Positions 6,665-15,340 of a DNA stretch of 64,000 nucleotides are shown piece after piece (positions within the stretch are counted from its first letter, which is position 1; the number at the start of each line of letters is the position of its first letter). The stretch covers positions 173,088 to 237,087 of the forward strand of contig NZ_QRAO01000003.1 in NCBI RefSeq assembly GCF_003353425.1, read 5' to 3'. Origin of the DNA: Marinirhabdus gelatinilytica. Its GTDB lineage: Bacteria; Bacteroidota; Bacteroidia; Flavobacteriales; Flavobacteriaceae. The translations under genes and the position numbers were made by a program. The notes beneath the pieces are model-generated. The model saw only the letters and a program-made list of their open reading frames with translations, was not told where the DNA came from and did no database searches.

Positions 6665-6765
6665 AAGGATGGAGCAACACCAAGGTTGAGAAGGTTGTTG
6701 AGGCTGGGGAGTATTCGGTTTTGTGAAATGTATGGTGTTATAGGTTATAAGACCTAAACGGTATA

Positions 6766-7254
6766 TCAACTTTTTTTCCAACTAATGAATACGAGGAAAT
6801 TACTGATGCCAATATACAATTGTTGCAGCACCCCAATTACAAGCAATAGCTCGAGCCAAGGGATATACCCGAACGCTGCTACAAAATGTAAAATTATGAG
6901 CACTGGACCAATTATGGAATCCACTACATCTTTGAACCCCTTTGGTTCAGGTTTAATCTTATACTTAAAAACCGTATAAATAATCGAACTGAAGTTTGCT
7001 AGGTGCAGTAACCCGATCCCCAAATTAGCCAACCTCCAAACCAGGGAATTGTTCTCAGCCTCAATACTAATTATCTGTGGCAATAAGGAACCTACCAAAG
7101 CGGTTAAGGTTGTTGTGACCAAAGCTTGAAATTGTATTTTTTCATACTTGTCCCAATCATCCGAGCCGTGTTTTAATGCAACAACAACCCCCGTAAAACC
7201 CAATACTCCCAAAGCTATTTGGGCAAGGGTATTCAACAAATCGGAATGTTCCAT
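6766..7254 (-). CDS. Small integral membrane protein of unknown function
   Basis: A 162-residue protein with four predicted membrane segments: about residues 10-27 (QIALGVLGFTGVVVAL), 42-62, 74-96 and 118-150. It lacks a signal peptide and any motif that I recognise. The short loop DDWDKYEKIQFQALVTTTLT after the first helix is polar. It lies alone on the minus strand at the left edge of an AT-rich accessory stretch and has no evident operon partner. It may be an accessory gene of the same region as the barstar and restriction genes. Confidence 0.65.
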   Translation of the reverse strand: MEHSDLLNTLAQIALGVLGFTGVVVALKHGSDDWDKYEKIQFQALVTTTLTALVGSLLPQIISIEAENNSLVWRLANLGIGLLHLANFSSIIYTVFKYKIKPEPKGFKDVVDSIIGPVLIILHFVAAFGYIPWLELLLVIGVLQQLYIGISNFLVFISWKKS

Positions 7255-7451
7255 TGGTTAGTTTGGTTTATGAGCTATAACATTTTTGTATAGAGCCAGT
7301 TGCGGGATTAAAGGTACTGATTTTCGGATTAGTACAGACTTTTGCAATTCTAAGGGCCCACCTATGGGCAGAAAGGGATACGGATAGCCTGTACAGACAT
7401 TCGGGATAGTTGAATGTGCCGTTATTGTGGTTATACTTTGTTGTGATTTCG

Positions 7452-7952
7452 TTATTTTTTTCTGTTTTTATTCAGCCATTCAATTCCATTCCAACTTGGA
7501 CTTGATCCACCGAGTTCAGGAAAATCCAAATCAGGATTATCCGATTGTATTAGTCCGATTAATTTTTGTCCAGTCAAAAGCCAAACTCTTGATTCCCTTG
7601 CAATAATATTGAGAATAGCTTCTGCAAATTTTCCGTCTTCTTTCACAAAGTTGTCATATCGCCTAAAAACTAAAATCAGTCCTTTGTATTTTTTATTATA
7701 CATCTCAGTCAAACAATCCGCAAACGCATTAAGGTTTTCTCCATAGTAATCTGGGAAATTCAGAGCAGTTTTTAAATTCTGATGTGCGTTTTTCCTATTC
7801 CAATTTCGACAATTCACTTCTATAATCTCGAAGTTATTATTGTTAAACCAAATCAAATCTTCGTCGAGAACTCCGTTTTTGAAATATTTGCAAATCGGTC
7901 CGTCTTTTAGAATTTCTATATCCTTTTCTATTTTTTCTTCGTTTAATTCCAT
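7452..7952 (-). CDS. Barstar-family protein without a nearby barnase
   Basis: Barstars are intracellular inhibitors of secreted or injected ribonucleases. The core is visible at about residues 40-95: IIEVNCRNWNRKNAHQNLKT, then the hallmark LNFPDYYGENLNAFADCLTE with the conserved Tyr-Tyr-Gly-x-Asn-x-x-Ala-x-x-Asp pattern. At 166 residues it is longer than classical barstar (about 90), with an N-terminal extension of about 40 residues and a C-terminal tail ending in basic residues. No ribonuclease toxin gene adjoins it. It is flanked by AT-rich non-coding DNA of about 200 bp on each side, including a repeat-like motif at 7989-8014. It could act as immunity against nuclease toxins from competitors; that is inference. 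Confidence 0.8.
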   Translation of the reverse strand: MELNEEKIEKDIEILKDGPICKYFKNGVLDEDLIWFNNNNFEIIEVNCRNWNRKNAHQNLKTALNFPDYYGENLNAFADCLTEMYNKKYKGLILVFRRYDNFVKEDGKFAEAILNIIARESRVWLLTGQKLIGLIQSDNPDLDFPELGGSSPSWNGIEWLNKNRKK

Positions 7953-7988
7953 TTATTAATTCAAATCCAAGAGTTTTGTCATAATGGA

Positions 7989-8014
7989 GCACAACGGGTT
8001 TTCATACAATATGG
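7989..8014. repeat. Boundary motif related to the 9631-9660 repeat
   Basis: Read on the minus strand this segment runs GCCATATTGTATGAAAACC and ends CGTTGTG. The core TATTGTATGAAA matches the + strand core TATTGTGTATGAAA of the motif at 9641-9655. It lies between the barstar-like gene and the VCBS gene. About 110 bp further, GTTGGCAGTTGTTGGCAA (about 8115-8132) shares the word GTTGGCAA with the reverse complement of 9632-9639. The identity is modest and was judged by eye. Confidence 0.4.
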
Positions 8015-8141
8015 CTGGTCTTGAGCTGCAGCAATAATTCGCTGTTCCAATATTTTTTAAAGTTAGGGAATTTTATTTTGAAGAACTGTGCTAGTGCTTT
8101 TCATAGGATACTTTGTTGGCAGTTGTTGGCAAACTAGAAGA

Positions 8142-9530
8142 TTAATAAATTAACAGTTTTTTATTTCCTTCAATACCTTCTTGATCTAAGACTTTAACAA
8201 AATATACTCCAGCAGTTAGTGTTTCTATGTTAACATTTCTTTTATATTCAGATTTTAACACTAAGCGTCCTGCGGAATTTAAAATTCTGATTGAAGCTAT
8301 TTTTTTATCACAGGTTATATTCAACATCTTGGATGTTGGATTTGGAATGATCGAAAATCGCACTGTATCATTTTCTGGCATACCCAATATAGATAAGTTC
8401 TCAAACCAAGTAACTTTATCATTAGAGGCTGATGTAGCAATAAAATCCATGTCACCATCTCCATCAATATCAGCTACAGAAATAGATCTTGGATTATTAA
8501 AATTGCTTTCAATTATAGGTTGAATCGGACCAAAATTCTGACTTCCTAAATTTTCAATCCAAGATACAGATCCATTTAAGTTGCTAGTTAAAACGCTCGT
8601 AAAGACTATATCGTAATCGCCATCATTGTCAAAATCTACAGGCTGTATTGAAGATGGTTTTTCTTCCATATTTGCAATAATTTGAATAGATCCAAAATTT
8701 CCTTCTACGTTAGAATACCATACAATTTCTCCGCCAGGAAGAGTATTATTTGGAACATTGTTATTAGATATTATATCTAGATCGTTATCTTGATCAAAAT
8801 CTACTAGATTTATCCAATCGACATAAGTTTCTTGATCGGCAACTAATAATTGATTTCCAAAATTTCCTTGGCCATCAAGATTTTCAGACTTAGCAATTAC
8901 ACCGGCTTCTGAATTTACATAAACAATATCATTATCACCATCATTATCTAAATCACCTGCTTTAATTCTTCTAGGACGGTTTGTTTGGCTTAAACTAATT
9001 CCTGATCCAAAATCACCTAGACCATCTAGATTTTCATGCCAAAAATATCCGAATGGACTGAAATCAGAACTTGTTAATACATCTATGTCATTATCTCCAT
9101 CCAAATCTGCTGTATCAATGCCGAAAGAACCCATTTCGATATCTGAAAGTATATTTCTAGTTCCAAAATTTCCTTGACCGTCAATGTTTTCGAACCAAGC
9201 AACCTCATGCGATAAATAAGAGCTGGATAAGACATCTAAATCGTTATCACCGTCTAAGTCTGCTAAATGAATGTCGTATAAAGTATTAAATCCATCCGCG
9301 ACAAAATGGCTCACACTAAAATTCCCATCTCCATCAACATTTTCATACCATTCAATTGATTCACTTCCTTGCCCACCAGAAATGATATCCATATCACCAT
9401 CATTATCTATATCTCCAGCAAGATTCACAACGGGAAAAGATAAATTATGAGAGATATCATGTGGACTAAATGTTACTTGAGCGTGAAGTGAGTAATTCAA
9501 TAATAGAAGTAATATTAAACATTTTTGCAT
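8142..9530 (-). CDS. Secreted VCBS/FG-GAP repeat protein with T9SS type A sorting domain
   Basis: A 462-residue exported protein. A signal peptide covers residues 1-18 (cleaved after SLHAQ). Seven Asp-rich repeats follow, including GDIDNDGDMDIISG, ADLDGDNDLDVLSS, ADLDGDNDIDVLTSS, GDLDNDGDNDIVYV, VDFDQDNDLDIIS, VDFDNDGDYDIVFTS and ADIDGDGDMDFIATS. These resemble the calcium-binding blades of VCBS/FG-GAP beta-propellers. The last 75 residues form a type A sorting domain: SIIPNPTSKMLNI, then IRILNSAGRLVLKSE, TLTAGVYFVKVLD and the final KKLLIY, which directs export and surface attachment by the type IX system. The protein is therefore probably a cell-surface propeller, with adhesion or binding as the guess. 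The gene is AT-rich and isolated. Confidence 0.9.
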   Translation of the reverse strand: MQKCLILLLLLNYSLHAQVTFSPHDISHNLSFPVVNLAGDIDNDGDMDIISGGQGSESIEWYENVDGDGNFSVSHFVADGFNTLYDIHLADLDGDNDLDVLSSSYLSHEVAWFENIDGQGNFGTRNILSDIEMGSFGIDTADLDGDNDIDVLTSSDFSPFGYFWHENLDGLGDFGSGISLSQTNRPRRIKAGDLDNDGDNDIVYVNSEAGVIAKSENLDGQGNFGNQLLVADQETYVDWINLVDFDQDNDLDIISNNNVPNNTLPGGEIVWYSNVEGNFGSIQIIANMEEKPSSIQPVDFDNDGDYDIVFTSVLTSNLNGSVSWIENLGSQNFGPIQPIIESNFNNPRSISVADIDGDGDMDFIATSASNDKVTWFENLSILGMPENDTVRFSIIPNPTSKMLNITCDKKIASIRILNSAGRLVLKSEYKRNVNIETLTAGVYFVKVLDQEGIEGNKKLLIY

Positions 9531-9968
9531 GGAGTAAGTTATTTTATATAAAATTAGGTAAAATCAAATATAGGGGGATTTGATTGAGGTCAATGTTATT
9601 TTTTCGTTTAAATGTTAATTCGTCAATCTTGTTGCCAACGGTATTGTGTATGAAACGTAGTGTATAAATAGACACTAACTTTTCGGATTTAGCACGAGCC
9701 GAATTTTATATTTTTATGTTTAATTTTCTTTTCTAAATATAACTAAATAAAAAATTTGGTGTACTTTGTAAATATACAGAAACCTCTCGGAAAGCCTATT
9801 ATAGCTATGTTTTATACACGTTGCTGTAAGTAGTGCCACGTTCTGCTTGGTTTTCGGATGTTTGTTATTTAGTTCAAATGTGAGCTTTGGCAAGACATAC
9901 TCTTTTGCAATTTTTGGCTTGTGTGTTGGCTGAAGCGAATTGCGAATGTGTATGGCTTTGTGCGCTGG
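9531..9968. other. Intergenic region of about 440 bp with repeat motifs
   Basis: No coding sequence is supported here. The region contains the inverted pair described at 9631-9660 and 9805-9837, a T-rich stretch, and G/T-rich low-complexity sequence near 9880-9960 (repeated TTGGC and TGTG words). The left part would hold the promoter of the VCBS gene on the minus strand and the right part the 3' end of the restriction operon. The sequence appears typical of the joins between accessory inserts in this family. Confidence 0.5.
9631..9837. repeat. Imperfect inverted repeat between the VCBS gene and the RM operon
   Basis: The left arm at 9647-9660 (TGTATGAAACGTAG, preceded by CAACG at 9636-9640) is matched in inverted orientation by 9805-9818 (reverse complement TGTATAAAACATAG, adjoining CAACG from 9819-9823). 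Twelve of the 14 core bases agree and both differences are transitions. The right arm continues to 9837 and resembles the motif at 15212-15243 on the far side of the restriction operon. No open frame spans the region. The arms may be ends of a recombining unit or simply decayed shared intergenic sequence. Confidence 0.5.
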
Positions 9969-12842
9969 CTATTTTTCAACTATAATTTCTCGTATTAAAT
10001 TTTCTATTTTCTTATTGCTAAATTGTTTTCTGAATTTAATCTTAATTGTATCTCCAAAGAACTTTTCTGCGTGTCTAATCTTCTGTTTCTCCTCATTCCT
10101 TAAACTTTCTTCTGCTGTATTTTTTGTTTCTACAACAAAGTACAATTTTTTCGATTTGTCCTCATAATTCAAAACATAAGCAAAATCAGGCGAATAACTT
10201 TTTCCGCCAGCAACAGGAATCTTTATTGAGTTTTTTGGGATTTTAGAGAAAACAACTACTTCTTTCAAGTTTTGTTCAATATTCTGTTTTTCTAATTCAG
10301 AATCGTAAAATAATTCATCAAGTAGATAGGTTTGTGCTACTTTATTCTCGGAATACATCACACCAACATCAGAAGCAGAAATTTCTTTTAATACATTTCC
10401 TTTTTCGTCAGTAAATTTAGTTGGATGAATTTCATTGCTCACTTTTTGATATTCAATTCCAAATTTATCTATTGCGTTATACATTAAATAATTCTCGAAT
10501 TTTTGCTTAATAATACGGACTGTGGCAATATTTAGAAATTTGTTTATGTCGATATTAGAATCAATAAATGAACTGTTTAAAGTCTTTATATTGATATTTA
10601 GTGTTTTTGCTAATTCCTTTAAGAAGCTACTGTACTTCATTGTAGAAATTGGCGTTATCTCATTTCCATAAATTTCTTGTTCTTCTTTAACTCCAGCAAT
10701 GTTGTCAGTTATTTCAATTTGCGCTGTTCTTTCTTTTATGCCTTCAATAGTAAAATTACTGTTTTGCTCATTCAAGAAATTAACAAATAAGGATTTGAAT
10801 TTATCTTCTTTTTCAAACTTATACTCTAAAATTACCTTTTCATTTAATTTCTCCCACAGTTCTTTTAATTCGGTGTATTTTTCTGTTCTTATGCTTACTT
10901 GTTTTTTCTTATCTGTAGATTTTCTAACTTTATTAGAGCCAACACCTTCAAATATTTTGGGATAGTTATGTTTAATAAAATCAAAACCACCTTCTTTGAA
11001 TTTATTAGACCTTGTAACAACATTATTATCGTCTAATATTTCAAATAAATCATCTTCTGTTGTTTCGTATAGTTCACAAATTTTCTTTACAATATCGTCT
11101 GATAATTTTTCAGGAATTTCTTCTATTGATATAGCTCCTGATTTCTCATTAATTTCATTCACTAATTTATCTACAAAATCACTTTCTGTAAAATCTACAA
11201 AGTAGTTTAGATAAAACTGTTCGTCTTTTACTCGGTTACCGTATTCATTTACTGGAAGTCTTAAACCTCTACCAACTTCTTGTAATTTTGAAATATCGCT
11301 ACCGCTACTTCTTAATTTACAAATCTGAAAAACATTAGGATTATCCCAACCTTCTCGCAATGTCCATTTTGAAAAAATAAATCGTCTTGGATTATCCAAT
11401 TCAAGCATTGCTTGTTTGTCGTGCAGTATTTCGTTTATTTCTTTTTCAATCGCTTCATCTTTCTCTGAATTATCTTTTGAAAAATAACCTGCGTGTGTAA
11501 GACTTATATCTTGCAAGGTTTTTTCAAGATACGCTTTGTAAAACTTGTTTTTTTCGGTTTTAAGTAAAGTTTCTATTTCTGCTTTTATTAAACTTTCAAT
11601 AGTTGTTCTTAAATATCCATTTTCGTTTCTATACTCTTCTATATTATCAATAAAAAAGAGAGTAATTGGTTTAATTTTTACACTTCTTGTGAGTAATTGT
11701 TTTTCATTTTCAAAGTGGCTTTTTATGGCTTTTTGAATCATTATTTCTTGCAGTTTTTCTGCATAAGAATAAGGGTTTAATTTATCTCCTTTAGATAATT
11801 CAATTCCATTAGATAAAACAACTTTACTTTTGTTTAAACTTTCTACGTACAAATCTTCCATTGCAGAATGTACTCTTTGTAAACTTTCTTTTTTAGTAAG
11901 TTTGAATGTCTTTTTACTCTTGTCTTCCAATAATTCAAAAGTAGCTTCTTTTCCGTCCGTATTATTGAGTTTTACAATAGCATTCTTTCCGCTTTCAAAC
12001 TCTGTAATATGACCTATTACACCTTTTACTAAATTACGATTGAAAGAATCAACCGCAGTTAATGTGTAAACTAAATTCTCATATTCTTTAAATGTTGCAC
12101 CATAACGCAAGACAAATTGCGGTTTCATTTTTTGAATATTCTCCCAAGTTTTGTTCGATTTTGAAAATTTGTGAGGTTCATCTATAATTAGAAAAGGATT
12201 GACAGCAGAAATGGCATCAATAGGTACGGTGTATTTGTCAAATATTCCCCTGTCAAAAGATTGTTGCATCGTTTTAGAGTTTATCATTCCTGCATTGATA
12301 ACTAGTACTTGAATGCTATTTTTTTCATAAACTCCTGCGTTTACAAAGCTATTTACAGCAGGTGGCATAAACGATTTTTTGTTTTTACCTCCTTTTTTAC
12401 TTTCTACGATATGTAATTTAATGGTTTTGCCATATTGTTCTTTAAAATGTGCTCTTGCACTATCACTTTTTAAAAAATCGACTGTTCCAGCTTTAATAGA
12501 AAGTGTAGGAACAATTACAATAAATTTAAAAAGACCGTAATTTTTATTGAGTTCAAAAATGGTTTTGGTATAAGTATAGGTTTTTCCTGTTCCTGTTTCC
12601 ATCATAATATCTATGATGTTACTGTTCAGATTTACCTTTCCTTCAATATTATTTACCTTTTGTAATTCTATAATGTTTTTAGGATAGGTATTATTACCAT
12701 CATAAATTTTCAAGACGGGATTAAGAAATTGTTTATCAACTCCTTTTGCTTGTTCTACTTCTAAACTATCAAAAACTTTAACAGTACTTTTTACCGCTTG
12801 AGTTTGATGTTGTAGGTTCTTTTCAAAATTAAATCCTTTCAT
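9969..12842 (-). CDS. res: Type III restriction enzyme Res subunit (helicase-nuclease)
   Basis: The ATP-dependent DNA translocase and nuclease of a type III restriction system, acting with Mod on DNA carrying two unmethylated sites. The 957-residue protein has superfamily 2 helicase motifs: Walker A ETGTGKT at 82-88, DEPH as motif II near residue 220, and motif VI region around VGRGLRLPVN (about 525). The C-terminal PD-(D/E)xK nuclease is visible as SPDFAYV followed by YFVVETKN near 887-909. All key motifs are intact and the length is typical. It starts one base after mod ends, so the two subunits are translated from one mRNA. Base composition is clearly AT-richer than the flanking core genes, consistent with horizontal transfer. 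Confidence 0.95.
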   Translation of the reverse strand: MKGFNFEKNLQHQTQAVKSTVKVFDSLEVEQAKGVDKQFLNPVLKIYDGNNTYPKNIIELQKVNNIEGKVNLNSNIIDIMMETGTGKTYTYTKTIFELNKNYGLFKFIVIVPTLSIKAGTVDFLKSDSARAHFKEQYGKTIKLHIVESKKGGKNKKSFMPPAVNSFVNAGVYEKNSIQVLVINAGMINSKTMQQSFDRGIFDKYTVPIDAISAVNPFLIIDEPHKFSKSNKTWENIQKMKPQFVLRYGATFKEYENLVYTLTAVDSFNRNLVKGVIGHITEFESGKNAIVKLNNTDGKEATFELLEDKSKKTFKLTKKESLQRVHSAMEDLYVESLNKSKVVLSNGIELSKGDKLNPYSYAEKLQEIMIQKAIKSHFENEKQLLTRSVKIKPITLFFIDNIEEYRNENGYLRTTIESLIKAEIETLLKTEKNKFYKAYLEKTLQDISLTHAGYFSKDNSEKDEAIEKEINEILHDKQAMLELDNPRRFIFSKWTLREGWDNPNVFQICKLRSSGSDISKLQEVGRGLRLPVNEYGNRVKDEQFYLNYFVDFTESDFVDKLVNEINEKSGAISIEEIPEKLSDDIVKKICELYETTEDDLFEILDDNNVVTRSNKFKEGGFDFIKHNYPKIFEGVGSNKVRKSTDKKKQVSIRTEKYTELKELWEKLNEKVILEYKFEKEDKFKSLFVNFLNEQNSNFTIEGIKERTAQIEITDNIAGVKEEQEIYGNEITPISTMKYSSFLKELAKTLNINIKTLNSSFIDSNIDINKFLNIATVRIIKQKFENYLMYNAIDKFGIEYQKVSNEIHPTKFTDEKGNVLKEISASDVGVMYSENKVAQTYLLDELFYDSELEKQNIEQNLKEVVVFSKIPKNSIKIPVAGGKSYSPDFAYVLNYEDKSKKLYFVVETKNTAEESLRNEEKQKIRHAEKFFGDTIKIKFRKQFSNKKIENLIREIIVEK

Positions 12843-12843
12843 A

Positions 12844-14808
12844 TTAGAAGCGTGTTATAAAGTCAATATCAATACTTTTTTTGTTAGCATAAGACTTAAT
12901 ATTTTCGCTTATTTCACGCAAACTTTTACTCTCAAAATGATAACCAAATGCAATGATAGATGTTGGGTTAAAACCTTTATCATTATCTATTTTTTCTAAT
13001 AATAATTTTAGGTTTTCCGTTGTAAATCCTTTATCCATTAAATATAATTTTTCACTACTGTAATGTGCTGTGTAACCATCTAAATTAGTATCTTGTATTG
13101 TTTCAGTAAGTGGAATACCGTCATAGGTTTTCCAAGTAACCAAAAGTGCTTTTATGTCTTCTTTGGTTAGTTTACTTTCGTCAAATAAACTTGTTTGTTT
13201 TTCAAGTTCTTCTGATTCAAAAGTATAATCTTCCCAAATTGGCATTGTTTCAAATACTTTGAAACCTAAATCTTGATTTGATAAGTCTTCGCCTTCTCGT
13301 TCTCCTTGTATTTTTTTACTTGCTCTTACTAATCTTTCTTTGGTAATATCAAAAATGGTAGGCGTTTCTACTTTTAATTCATTTTTCACAAAATCGTAAG
13401 CTGTTTGATTACTTTTTTGGTCAATTAGTTCGGGTAATTGTGCCAAAATAAATTTGCGATTTCCAGCATCTTTTGCGTTGAGTTGCATTACAGCATCTCC
13501 AGTTGTTCCTGAACCTGCAAAGAAGTCTAGAATTATAGCCTTTGGATCATTATAAGAAATTGCCTTAATAATCGTCTTAATCAATTTTGTCGGTTTTGGG
13601 TTGCTAAAAAGGTCAATACCGAAAAGTGATACAATTTGTTTTGTAGCATCCTCATTTGTTTCCATTTCATAATGAGTTGGTGAAAACGAGTTTTTCATCT
13701 TCTTTATTTCGCCACCAATTTTTATATGGTTTGGTCTAAATGGAATTTTGCTAATTGAAATTTTTTCTTTGTTTTTTATTATTTCATTTAAGGTGTTTTG
13801 AGAATATCGCCATTCCCCTTTAAGTGTAAACTCATTTTCATTTAAACCATCTTTAACAATCAATTCGTTAAGTAATTCTGTAATAATTTTGCCTTCAGAC
13901 ATATCTTGTGGCTTAACAGTGCAATCTTCTATTGAAAATTCAACTGTTTGAGGTGGAAAAGTTAGCTCTTCTAATGAATTACCTGCGTTGTTAAATGGGT
14001 ACTTTTTACCTTCTGTAGTTTTTTCTATTGAAAAAGGAAAAGTTTTGCTAGAATTATTTACATAACACGTTATATATTCCGAGAGTTTACCTACATTTTT
14101 ATGCAAAAAAGATGGTTTCTTTTTCTTTTCCCAAATAAACTCACTTACAAAATTTTCCTCTCCAAAAATTTCATCCATCAACAATTTTAATTGTGCCACC
14201 TCATTATCATCAATAGAAATAAAAATGACACCATCATCTTTTAAAAGCTGTTTGGCAATATAAAGTCTTGGATACATAAACGTTAACCAAGCAGAGTGAG
14301 AGTTACTATTACTTTGTGTAAAGTCTAAAATACGTTTGGCACGTTCTTCATTTATTCCTGCTAATTCTTGTAATTCTTCTATGGTAAATTTTCTGTCGTC
14401 TGAGTATACAAAACCATCACTACCTGTATTGTATGGTGGGTCAATGTATATCATTTTAATTTTTTTGTAATAAGCATTTGATAAGTGCTTTAGCACTTCC
14501 AAATTGTCGCCTTTTATGAGTAGGTTCCCAGAATTTTTATTTTCGTCTTTTTGGTTAAAAGTTTCATCTTCTTTTAATAGAGTAGTGGCTTCGTCTGTTG
14601 CCAATAAACGAGCATAAGATTTACCCAACCAATCCATTCCGTAACTTTCTTTTGAAAAATTAATTTCGTTTTTAGAAAGTTGGGTTTTAAATTTTTCAAA
14701 GTCAAATTCTCCGCTTTTGTCAAAACAGTTTGGGAAGTTTTGCCTTAGTATTTCCAAATCCTTGTTTGGTGGTTGTATGTTGCCTGTTATTTTTTGTTCT
14801 TTGCTCAT
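12844..14808 (-). CDS. mod: Type III DNA methyltransferase Mod subunit
   Basis: The beta-class adenine-N6 methyltransferase that supplies sequence recognition for the type III system and protects host DNA. The 654-residue protein has catalytic motif IV DPPYNTG at 123-129 before the SAM-binding motif I FFAGSGTTGD (about 428-437), the order typical of beta-class Mod enzymes. The stretch between them (about 230-400) is the variable region expected to hold the target recognition domain, so the recognition site cannot be predicted. The C-terminal part after about 490 is conserved in Mod proteins. It is the second gene of a three-gene operon, one base from both neighbours. No simple-sequence tract that would support phase variation was found in the coding region. 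Confidence 0.95.
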   Translation of the reverse strand: MSKEQKITGNIQPPNKDLEILRQNFPNCFDKSGEFDFEKFKTQLSKNEINFSKESYGMDWLGKSYARLLATDEATTLLKEDETFNQKDENKNSGNLLIKGDNLEVLKHLSNAYYKKIKMIYIDPPYNTGSDGFVYSDDRKFTIEELQELAGINEERAKRILDFTQSNSNSHSAWLTFMYPRLYIAKQLLKDDGVIFISIDDNEVAQLKLLMDEIFGEENFVSEFIWEKKKKPSFLHKNVGKLSEYITCYVNNSSKTFPFSIEKTTEGKKYPFNNAGNSLEELTFPPQTVEFSIEDCTVKPQDMSEGKIITELLNELIVKDGLNENEFTLKGEWRYSQNTLNEIIKNKEKISISKIPFRPNHIKIGGEIKKMKNSFSPTHYEMETNEDATKQIVSLFGIDLFSNPKPTKLIKTIIKAISYNDPKAIILDFFAGSGTTGDAVMQLNAKDAGNRKFILAQLPELIDQKSNQTAYDFVKNELKVETPTIFDITKERLVRASKKIQGEREGEDLSNQDLGFKVFETMPIWEDYTFESEELEKQTSLFDESKLTKEDIKALLVTWKTYDGIPLTETIQDTNLDGYTAHYSSEKLYLMDKGFTTENLKLLLEKIDNDKGFNPTSIIAFGYHFESKSLREISENIKSYANKKSIDIDFITRF

Positions 14809-14809
14809 C

Positions 14810-15016
14810 TTAATTCCCAGTATTATTTTCGTTATCTACAAGTAAGTCTTTTGCGTTTACTTGAAGTATTTCTGCTATTTTGTATAAGTCTTCCAAACTT
14901 GGTTGTCTTTTGTTTCTTGCGTATTCATTAATGGTCGGATAACTTTTGTCCATTTTTTCAGCAAGCCAAGTCTGACTAATTCCTTTATCTTTTAAAACTT
15001 CTTTAATTCGGTTCAT
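14810..15016 (-). CDS. XRE-family HTH regulator leading the type III RM operon
   Basis: The open frame extends to 15052, but ATG at 15016 is preferred because it places the HTH at the usual distance and gives a 68-residue protein (MNRIKEVLKDKGISQTW). The helix-turn-helix covers about residues 4-58: ISQTWLAEKMDKSYPTINEY as the HTH, then NKRQPSLEDLYKIAEILQV, a standard Cro/cI pattern. It precedes mod by one base. Small HTH proteins at this position commonly act as controller proteins that time methyltransferase and nuclease expression; here that is inference from position and size. Its target would be the promoter upstream at about 15020-15100. Confidence 0.85.
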   Translation of the reverse strand: MNRIKEVLKDKGISQTWLAEKMDKSYPTINEYARNKRQPSLEDLYKIAEILQVNAKDLLVDNENNTGN

Positions 15017-15340
15017 TTTAAACCTTTTTATAATTAGGCAGAAAGATAGCAAAAATACATTGTTAAATAATGAAAATGTTCATTGTATTATCAGAAGTGT
15101 GTGGTTGGAAAAGGCAAGCTCTTTTTATTTTTTGAGGCACGAGAAAAATGAAATGTGCTTGACTGAGCGTTGGCTTTTTAACTTCAGATGTTGATGTTTA
15201 GCACGTTTTTCGGTATTGCTTACAACTTATTATATACTAACATTCATCATAGGTATCCCGGGAAATTTGCAGGTTATCCATAAAAAATTATCATGGGTAT
15301 TCCGTAAAGTTACTGCTAAAAAATAATTTTTTAAAATACC
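15017..15340. other. Intergenic region upstream of the RM operon
   Basis: About 320 bp without a supported gene. It must hold the promoter of the RM operon (minus strand) near 15030-15080, where the DNA is strongly AT-rich. At 15212-15243 is a motif (GGTATTGCTTACA followed by ACTTATTATATACTAACAT) whose reverse complement resembles the 9807-9837 motif on the other side of the operon. Further right, GGTATCCCGG (about 15251) and GGGTATTCCG (about 15295) are partial repeats of each other. The rny terminator starts at 15340. Confidence 0.5.
15212..15243. repeat. Right boundary motif of the RM insert
   Basis: The reverse complement of 15212-15243 begins ATGTT and ends TGTAAGCAATACC. The left motif at 9807-9837 begins ATGTT and ends TGTAAGTAGTGCC. 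The 13-base inner ends agree at 10 positions and the three differences are all transitions. The two are in inverted orientation and enclose the whole res-mod-HTH operon, as imperfect terminal repeats would. Confidence 0.45.

Follow-up and report, generated by a model that had tools for sequence, protein, structure and literature searches.

Between rny and an aldo/keto reductase gene of Marinirhabdus gelatinilytica, in a 64,000-nucleotide stretch of contig NZ_QRAO01000003.1 (positions 173,088 to 237,087, hereafter the window), lies a block of accessory genes that is very probably a mini-array, in part decayed, belonging to an integron-like system and lacking an integrase of its own. Read from the rny end toward the aldo/keto reductase gene, the block appears from its sequence to consist of an attI-like head, type III restriction-modification (R-M) genes with an xre-like gene, an attC-like site, an FG-GAP gene, a decayed attC-like site, a barstar gene, a second decayed attC-like site and a gene for a 162-aa protein. 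The attI-like site (15224-15268, minus strand) has the core ..AAATTTCCCGGGATACCTATGATGAATGTTAGTATATAATAA followed by GTT, its junction AAC is at 15224-15226, and similar head sequence continues as far as about 15330; at 15226 (minus) TTATTATATAC.. and the R-M block meet directly at this AAC. The first cassette body (9823-15226, minus; ends GTTGTAAGC.. and GCTGTAAGTAG..) carries res (9969-12842), mod (12844-14808) and an open reading frame (ORF) at 14810-15052 that we read as Xre-like by eye, with Pfam matches to RE_endonuc, ResIII, N6_N4_Mtase and T3RM_EcoP15I_C. Attached to it is attC-like site 1 (9637-9825), on the plus strand, which is the stable folding strand and opposite to the genes; its L arm TGTATGAAACGTA (9647-9659) pairs with TATGTTTTATACA (9806-9818), G.T pairs stand at 9652/9813 and 9657/9808, and the outer GTT is now GCT at 9823-9825. 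The second cassette body (8125-9639, minus) encodes an FG-GAP/VCBS protein with a Por secretion tail (8142-9530) and has GTTGGCAA at each end. Its site 2 (7993-8127, plus) is decayed and of the long type; 7990-8130 scores 74 against known sites compared to 53 for the best of 20 shuffles, and its right half is 80-85% identical to other DNA of the same genome. Barstar (7452-7952; Pfam Barstar, 6.3e-17) occupies the third body (7440-7995, minus), whose ends GTTGTGCTCCATTATG and GTTGTGATTTCGTTAT match at 12 of 16 positions with one gap allowed, and decayed site 3 follows at 7279-7442 (plus), where 7276-7445 scores 57 and the best of 20 shuffles 43. The fourth body (6737-7281, minus) holds the gene for the 162-aa protein (6766-7254), which has no Pfam match, between the ends GTTATAGCTCATAA and GTTATAGGTTATAA, which match at 14 of 16 positions, again with one gap allowed.

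In three of the four congeners (G535, G073 and G533) and in genome G012, matches to the aldo/keto reductase and rny genes are about 40-240 bases apart and the block is absent between them; for the fourth congener, G534, no aldo/keto reductase match was available for comparison. The block from about 6665 to 15330 therefore looks like an insertion. Its R-M part (9812-15226) is 91% identical to a block with the same ends in an array of genome G101, which belongs to another genus, and in both places it is bounded by the site and by ..CTTACAAC. Given that the core gene rny is 76% identical between these two genomes, the comparison points to horizontal exchange of the R-M cassette between genera.

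The original prediction for this region held that degenerate copies of a few short words border each accessory gene, resembling a cassette array with attC-like boundary elements, and proposed testing whether such elements flank single accessory ORFs, fold as hairpins and co-occur with a particular recombinase. The cassette array is supported, and all three tests gave a positive outcome in the counts given below. All of the words were found where they had been placed, and they are pieces of a genuine site, but alone they are not enriched in the window: TATTGTGTATGAAA with at most 3 mismatches occurs 16 times against 13.5 expected, GTTGGCAA 4 times against 3.0 and TGTATAAAACATAG 19 times against 12.1. 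Since these counts are at chance level, we rejected word-level enrichment. The boundary element itself is real, but it is a site of 117-221 nt rather than a short word, and the elements at 9641-9655 (plus) and 9805-9818 (minus), previously taken as two, are instead both arms of one hairpin site of about 190 nt. By eye, the word at 7989-8014 is the left arm of decayed site 7993-8127, and we read GTTGGCAA at 8125 and the inverted copy at 9632-9639 as the termini of the FG-GAP ("VCBS") cassette. The genes named by the prediction do lie in the array; what it missed was the attI-like head at 15226 and the gene at 6766-7254, which is probably a fourth member.

The site is widespread. A blastn search with window positions 9560-9970 gave matches in 96 of 149 genomes of the family (E ≤ 0.001), and among the matches listed coverage was mostly of about 9636-9827, 9883-9970 or both. 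Within the M. gelatinilytica genome the better copies are on short contigs and near contig ends, as repeat arrays would give, and the contigs with copies alternate between gene and hairpin. On the strand opposite to the genes the site reads NNNNNNN-AAC-GGTNTT-G[5 nt]G[4 nt]G[TA..], then a variable inner part, then [..TA]T[4 nt]T[5 nt]C-NTT-GTT-NNNNNNN, and two fixed G of the left arm oppose T in the right arm. A scan for this pattern found 158 sites in 1,022,927 bases (71 stretches chosen for carrying matches or integrases) and one in the same sequence shuffled in 2-mer blocks. The arms were perfect across the 11 pairs tested in 142 of the 158; most sites are 122-126 or 186-193 nt long, and the four-base stem word takes 15 forms. 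In 51 of the 71 stretches, both positions are G.T in 135 sites, compared to A-T in 18, T-A in 7 and 0-3 for the remaining 13 combinations; site 1 of the window, with its GCT for the outer GTT, is counted among these 135 and was left out of the stricter 158-site scan. Given that the main scan presupposes pairing, we also fixed the left arm alone, and 80 of 89 distinct hits had a right arm that paired with no more than 1 mismatch over 12 pairs, compared to 59 of 445 swapped contexts and 1 of 445 shuffled contexts at the same tolerance. T,T faces both G in all 80 of these hits, and GTT comes next in 73. When folded with DNA energies, the non-coding strand was the more stable in 58 of 59 cases and equal in one (mean difference, 4.8 kcal/mol), in part by construction of the scan, and a site's own R arm was better than that of another cassette in 58 of 59 folds. 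Rfam returned no family at the gathering score for window positions 7000-10100 and loci L084-L087. Across the phylum the pattern was present in 33 of 392 genomes (7 control hits), including 12 of 46 within the family; of the 21 other genomes carrying it, only 4, all of family f24, look by eye like true arms.

The ends of the cassettes are complementary to each other across the gene. The approximately 7 nt that follow GTT pair with the 7 nt that precede AAC in the next site, with a mean run of 4.72 over 95 neighbour pairs compared to 1.09 after shuffling (maximum of 2000 shuffles, 1.64), 1.03 when one site is skipped (n = 77) and 1.13 when a site's own ends are compared with each other (n = 158). 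Runs of 5 nt or more after GTT are present in 64 of the 95, and many of the neighbour pairs with shorter runs may be separated by a site that was missed. All 41 runs of seven nt are followed by G against A, which is a third G.T. In the 64 end-matched cassettes, the longest ORF lies on the expected strand in 53. Copies of cassettes at different places break at AAC or close to it: one ORF-less cassette is present at three places of the M. gelatinilytica genome (contigs C9, C12 and C13), in copies that differ at one base, and the identity starts at AAC and ends at AAC (C9 versus C12) or 12 nt into the next site (C13 versus C12). The C9 copy touches attI. Other homologous cassettes (e.g., L160:13049, L162:6122 and L164:7026) start within 3 nt of AAC. 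The unit that different places have in common is a gene with its downstream site, as in integrons. The arrays of genomes G014 and G101 run to tens of kilobases, and the cargo includes ApaLI- and PvuRts1I-like restriction enzymes, a cytosine methylase, AbiEi, a reverse transcriptase, a PRTase-CE protein and an E1-E2 ATPase, as judged from 49 of 56 cassette ORFs and from the top 25 entries in lists of 46 Pfam families and 151 PADLOC families.

One kind of tyrosine recombinase accompanies the sites. The M. gelatinilytica genome has six tyrosine-recombinase matches, one of which, C9:2190-3353 (L087:2190-3353), adjoins an array, and relatives of this integrase are present in 101 of the 149 genomes at E ≤ 1e-40. 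Among 46 integrase loci, mostly picked by integrase hits and a few also for their arrays, 29 have sites, and all 69 of these sites are on the integrase 3' side and antisense to the integrase; the 5' flanks contain 0 sites in 308,797 bases. A search of named genomes gave 80 loci, of which 8 have sites, with 20 of the 21 sites in the predicted place and the exception being a 2-mismatch hit on the 5' side. These loci include Algibacter onchidii, Winogradskyella ursingii, Seonamhaeicola aphaedonensis and Algoriphagus ornithinivorans, although the Algibacter locus is probably already in the main sample (G145). The site word AACGGTNNTGNNTATGNNNNGNNG occurs in 82 of the 149 genomes, and its reversed control 3 times in total. 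Word and integrase (E ≤ 1e-40) are both present in 69 genomes and both absent from 35, with 32 having the integrase only and 13 the word only (p 3e-6, a guide only, given that the genomes are related to each other). As a separate observation, sites also stand beside integrase relatives outside Flavobacteriaceae, in Bacteroidales, Sphingobacteriales and Bacteroidetes metagenome-assembled genomes and in Algoriphagus (L273, L285, L297 and L268).

At many of these loci an attI-like site lies between the integrase and the array. The GTT-N7 of the first cassette, sought between the integrase stop and the first site, is preceded by ..ATATAA.. (..ATATAACNA, then GTT) at 10 of 24 loci; by reading, 8 of the other 14 end at an attC that the scan missed, 3 at another sequence, and 3 gave no hit. 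ATATAA, followed after 1-3 nt by GTT, is found near the integrase stop at 27 of 46 loci. In leave-one-out scoring 25 of these 27 sites reached at least 19.8, one scored 14.0, and one, probably a wrong pick, scored -25.6. The matrix built from the 27, applied to all positions and both strands of the window, gave its best score at 15226 (minus), with 15.2 compared to 9.25 for the next position. This score is 13.5 when the site from the same genome is taken out of the matrix and is below the leave-one-out scores of 25 of the 27 known sites. Including that of the window, the genome has five such dispersed heads (C1:741322, C3:427686, C2:503661, C3:385750 and C3:188311; L368-L372), each with a site or site-like match within about 3 kb, and about 95 nt of them can be aligned with the attI next to the integrase; they carry repeated words of the GGATA.CCATGATAAAT type. 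None was found in the four congeners, one of which is 81% complete. No integrase remnant was detected at the dispersed heads by tblastn below E 2.2 within 1.5 kb; at the window head the alignment to the integrase 3' end is weak (score 29, shuffle maximum 26), and we do not claim a remnant there.

The recombinase differs from IntI. The residues R, K, H, R, H and Y, which we take to be the catalytic motif, are invariant in 31 integrases. The IntI profile TIGR02249 is above its cut-off in 0 of the 149 genomes, and 67 fall below it at E ≤ 1e-30; the M. gelatinilytica integrase scores 208 bits against a cut-off of 265. About 40-45 residues of structure 2A3V, at the presumed IntI-specific insertion, have no counterpart in it. 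Similar to archaeal and Xer-like recombinases, it has NF040815 (recomb_XerA_Arch) as its best NCBIfam match (218 bits; cut-off, 220) and XerA 5hxy as its best Foldseek E-value, but it is tied to cassette arrays and attI/attC-like sites, and an N-terminal domain of about 75-95 residues is added. Among the 50 Foldseek matches listed, the highest TM-score over the query (0.57) belongs to the V. cholerae IntI-attC complex 2a3v. Relatives of the integrase on plasmids and phages are all below 60% identity. Its first approximately 75 residues form a separate predicted domain (predicted local distance difference test score, 90), which perhaps is HARP/XPB-like. Pfam HARP matches 2 of the 31 integrases (best E 7.8e-4), Foldseek gives weak matches to XPB (E 0.04) and the SMARCAL1 HARP domain (E 0.17), and VIA gives XPB a Z of 7.3 (root-mean-square deviation, 2.1; 58 aligned), which is tied with the unrelated CASTOR1 at 7.1 and is below the level that excludes a mere common arrangement. 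A comparison with Protein Data Bank sequences gave nothing below E 0.24. HARP domains bind forks and junctions. The N-terminal domain here might recognise the junctions of the hairpin or its G.T pairs.

Integrons are the standard example of how genes are captured through single-stranded DNA that folds, with IntI regarded as their hallmark. The R box consensus of integrons is GTTRRRY/RYYYAAC. The other integron features that we used for comparison come from PMC2727003, PMC8618304 and PMC8946536. Set beside a sedentary chromosomal integron (IntIA of V. cholerae with its V. cholerae repeats, VCR) or class 1 IntI1, the system has in common a tyrosine recombinase with an attI-like site, arrays in one orientation of mostly single-gene cassettes with a hairpin downstream of the gene, an AAC/GTT core in which G follows AAC, R and L stems separated by an unpaired asymmetric spacer, a variable inner part, and a non-coding strand that folds better, here by predicted stability. 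It differs in that the IntI-specific insertion is missing and an extra N-terminal domain is present, the R stem is about 10 bp and cassette specific in sequence, the integrase 3' end points toward the array, and attI-like heads are dispersed. Fixed G.T pairs stand where integrons, according to PMC2727003, have two or three extrahelical bases, and the L arms pair base for base in the 142 perfect sites of a scan that sought ungapped arms. A purine occupies the first base after GTT in 62 of 64 ends and the second in only 17 of 64, which departs from GTTRRRY. The IntI-specific additional domain is what defines IntI in PMC9668308 and PMC2426708. The system seems to work like an integron, yet its recombinase is not an IntI in that sense. 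It also resembles the clusters of two or more attC sites, as called by the published attC model, that lack an integron-integrase (CALIN) of IntegronFinder (PMC9024848), in that the window block is an attC-like cluster with no integrase nearby, but the window has an attI-like head and sites of the family described here, called by our own scan rather than by the published attC model.

We propose that the recombinase at C9:2190-3353 joins an attC-like hairpin, formed by one folded DNA strand, to the attI-like site ..ATATAACNA followed by GTT and captures circular cassettes in this way. A cassette is GTT-N7, a gene, and N7'-AAC followed by the hairpin, with N7 and N7' complementary. Since the ends are complementary across the gene, the hairpin of a circular cassette would be closed by a 10-bp R stem, followed by an asymmetric unpaired spacer (about 6 versus 3 nt) and then by the L stem, and the break during recombination would fall at the AAC/GTT triplet. 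The G.T pairs are on the non-coding strand, with A.C mismatches on the other, and would make the non-coding strand fold better; given that they favour folding of one strand, they should fix the orientation of the cassette. The array in the window may have been seeded at an attI-like site without an integrase of its own.

We consider the cassette-capture explanation as a whole highly probable, and several observations weigh against it or against its details. The site anatomy, the pairing, the polarity, the attI-like junctions, the breaks of repeated copies at AAC, the empty site and the occurrence of one cassette in two genera are seen directly in the sequences. Excision and insertion, a single-strand mechanism, use of the non-coding strand, the role of the G.T pairs, the identity of the enzyme and the seeding of the window at an integrase-less attI-like site are all matters that we infer from sequence. 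The strand asymmetry is partly built in, given that the scan demanded two G.T positions, and the best fold holds at least 8 of 10 R pairs in only 52 of 59 cases and the L arms in 47. No site was found by the scan at 17 of the 46 integrase loci, or at 9 of the 38 with at least 1000 bases of 3' flank. The word is present without the integrase in 13 of the 149 genomes and the integrase without the word in 32; the association is weaker at E ≤ 1e-70, with 36 genomes having both, 14 the integrase only, 46 the word only and 53 neither (p 0.003). Within the window, sites 2 and 3 are decayed, the first has GCT for GTT, and a fourth is unrecognisable, the candidate at 6665-6745 being unsupported with a score of 30 (shuffles up to 37; two control stretches likewise scored below their shuffles). 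The window array is therefore probably not active now. Such decay, together with imperfect end pairs, could also mean that the window genes are separate insertions beside rny and not one mini-array. We regard this as quite unlikely, given that the four end pairs of the window score 50, the best of 24 pairings (next, 43; the ends were set by eye before the pairing test), that the genes share one orientation with an attI-like head at the rny end, and that the site is empty of these genes in 3 of 4 congeners.

Other explanations concern the family as a whole. A canonical integron with an unusual or diverged IntI, and hence a plain member of the integron family, would follow the same logic of attI, attC-like hairpins, AAC/GTT, a better-folding non-coding strand and a unit of gene plus downstream site, and the TM-score of 2a3v fits it, but it is rather improbable given the failure of TIGR02249 to pass its cut-off in any genome, the missing insertion, the loss of GTTRRRY, the G.T pairs in place of extrahelical bases and the integrase 3' end facing the array; the separation from IntI is based on profile scores and structure comparison. 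Intergenic RNA elements, such as terminators or small RNAs, in ordinary accessory islands would explain the predicted structure of the inner part, its location in gene 3' regions and the 3' tail common to several cassettes (described below). This is very unlikely, because pairing of the outer ends spans the gene instead of the site, AAC is where repeated copies break (one of them at attI), polarity beside the recombinase is strict, and Rfam gave no family for the regions searched. Equally, inverted-arm hairpins in many copies could be mobile repeats (similar to miniature inverted-repeat transposable elements or repetitive extragenic palindromes), moved by a transposase and lying between genes by chance; the common unit, however, is gene plus hairpin, and each array has a single orientation on one side of a tyrosine recombinase, which makes this the remotest of the alternatives.

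The cassette-capture explanation thus leaves us with what seems to be an integron-like gene-capture system that is common in Flavobacteriaceae, apparently with a recombinase other than that of known integrons. We lean slightly toward going further and regarding it as a second class of integron, with a non-IntI tyrosine recombinase, a HARP/XPB-like domain that reads junctions, hairpin sites in which G.T pairs code for the strand, and dispersed attI-like landing pads, which would be a main gene-capture system of Flavobacteriaceae and would have been overlooked because surveys ask for the IntI insertion. We found no description of such a system in the literature searched, which left most subscription journals and preprints out of reach. 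Bacteroidota are counted among integron carriers, but the large survey of PMC9024848 gives for Bacteroidetes only cassette-less integrases and then a single complete integron, in Salinibacter. If our reading is correct, cassette arrays with defence-type cargo, including restriction-modification and reverse-transcriptase genes, are present in many Flavobacteriaceae and are served by another recombinase and another strand code, and it becomes testable how often folded-DNA capture arose, what role the IntI insertion serves and how strand choice can be encoded.

Two smaller observations concern the arrays themselves. The R-M cassette ends in a 3' tail (9878-9970, minus) common with other cassettes, which is 76-94% identical at 9 other places (e.g., L086:6130-6216, L177:293-380, L190:14432-14520 and L211:14652-14735) and lies 31-57 nt from attC at the 7 places with a scan-found attC. 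This tail of about 90 nt, with words of the GCCAACGCACAAAGCCATACACATT type, sits between the stop codon and attC of ORFs that by eye end differently, and it is perhaps a terminator or a trace of cassette making. Genome G014 carries, on one contig, two arrays about 0.5 Mb apart (L163 and L164 versus L159-L162) that have cassettes in common at 90-100% identity, and its sole integrase match at E ≤ 1e-40 lies at the second array.

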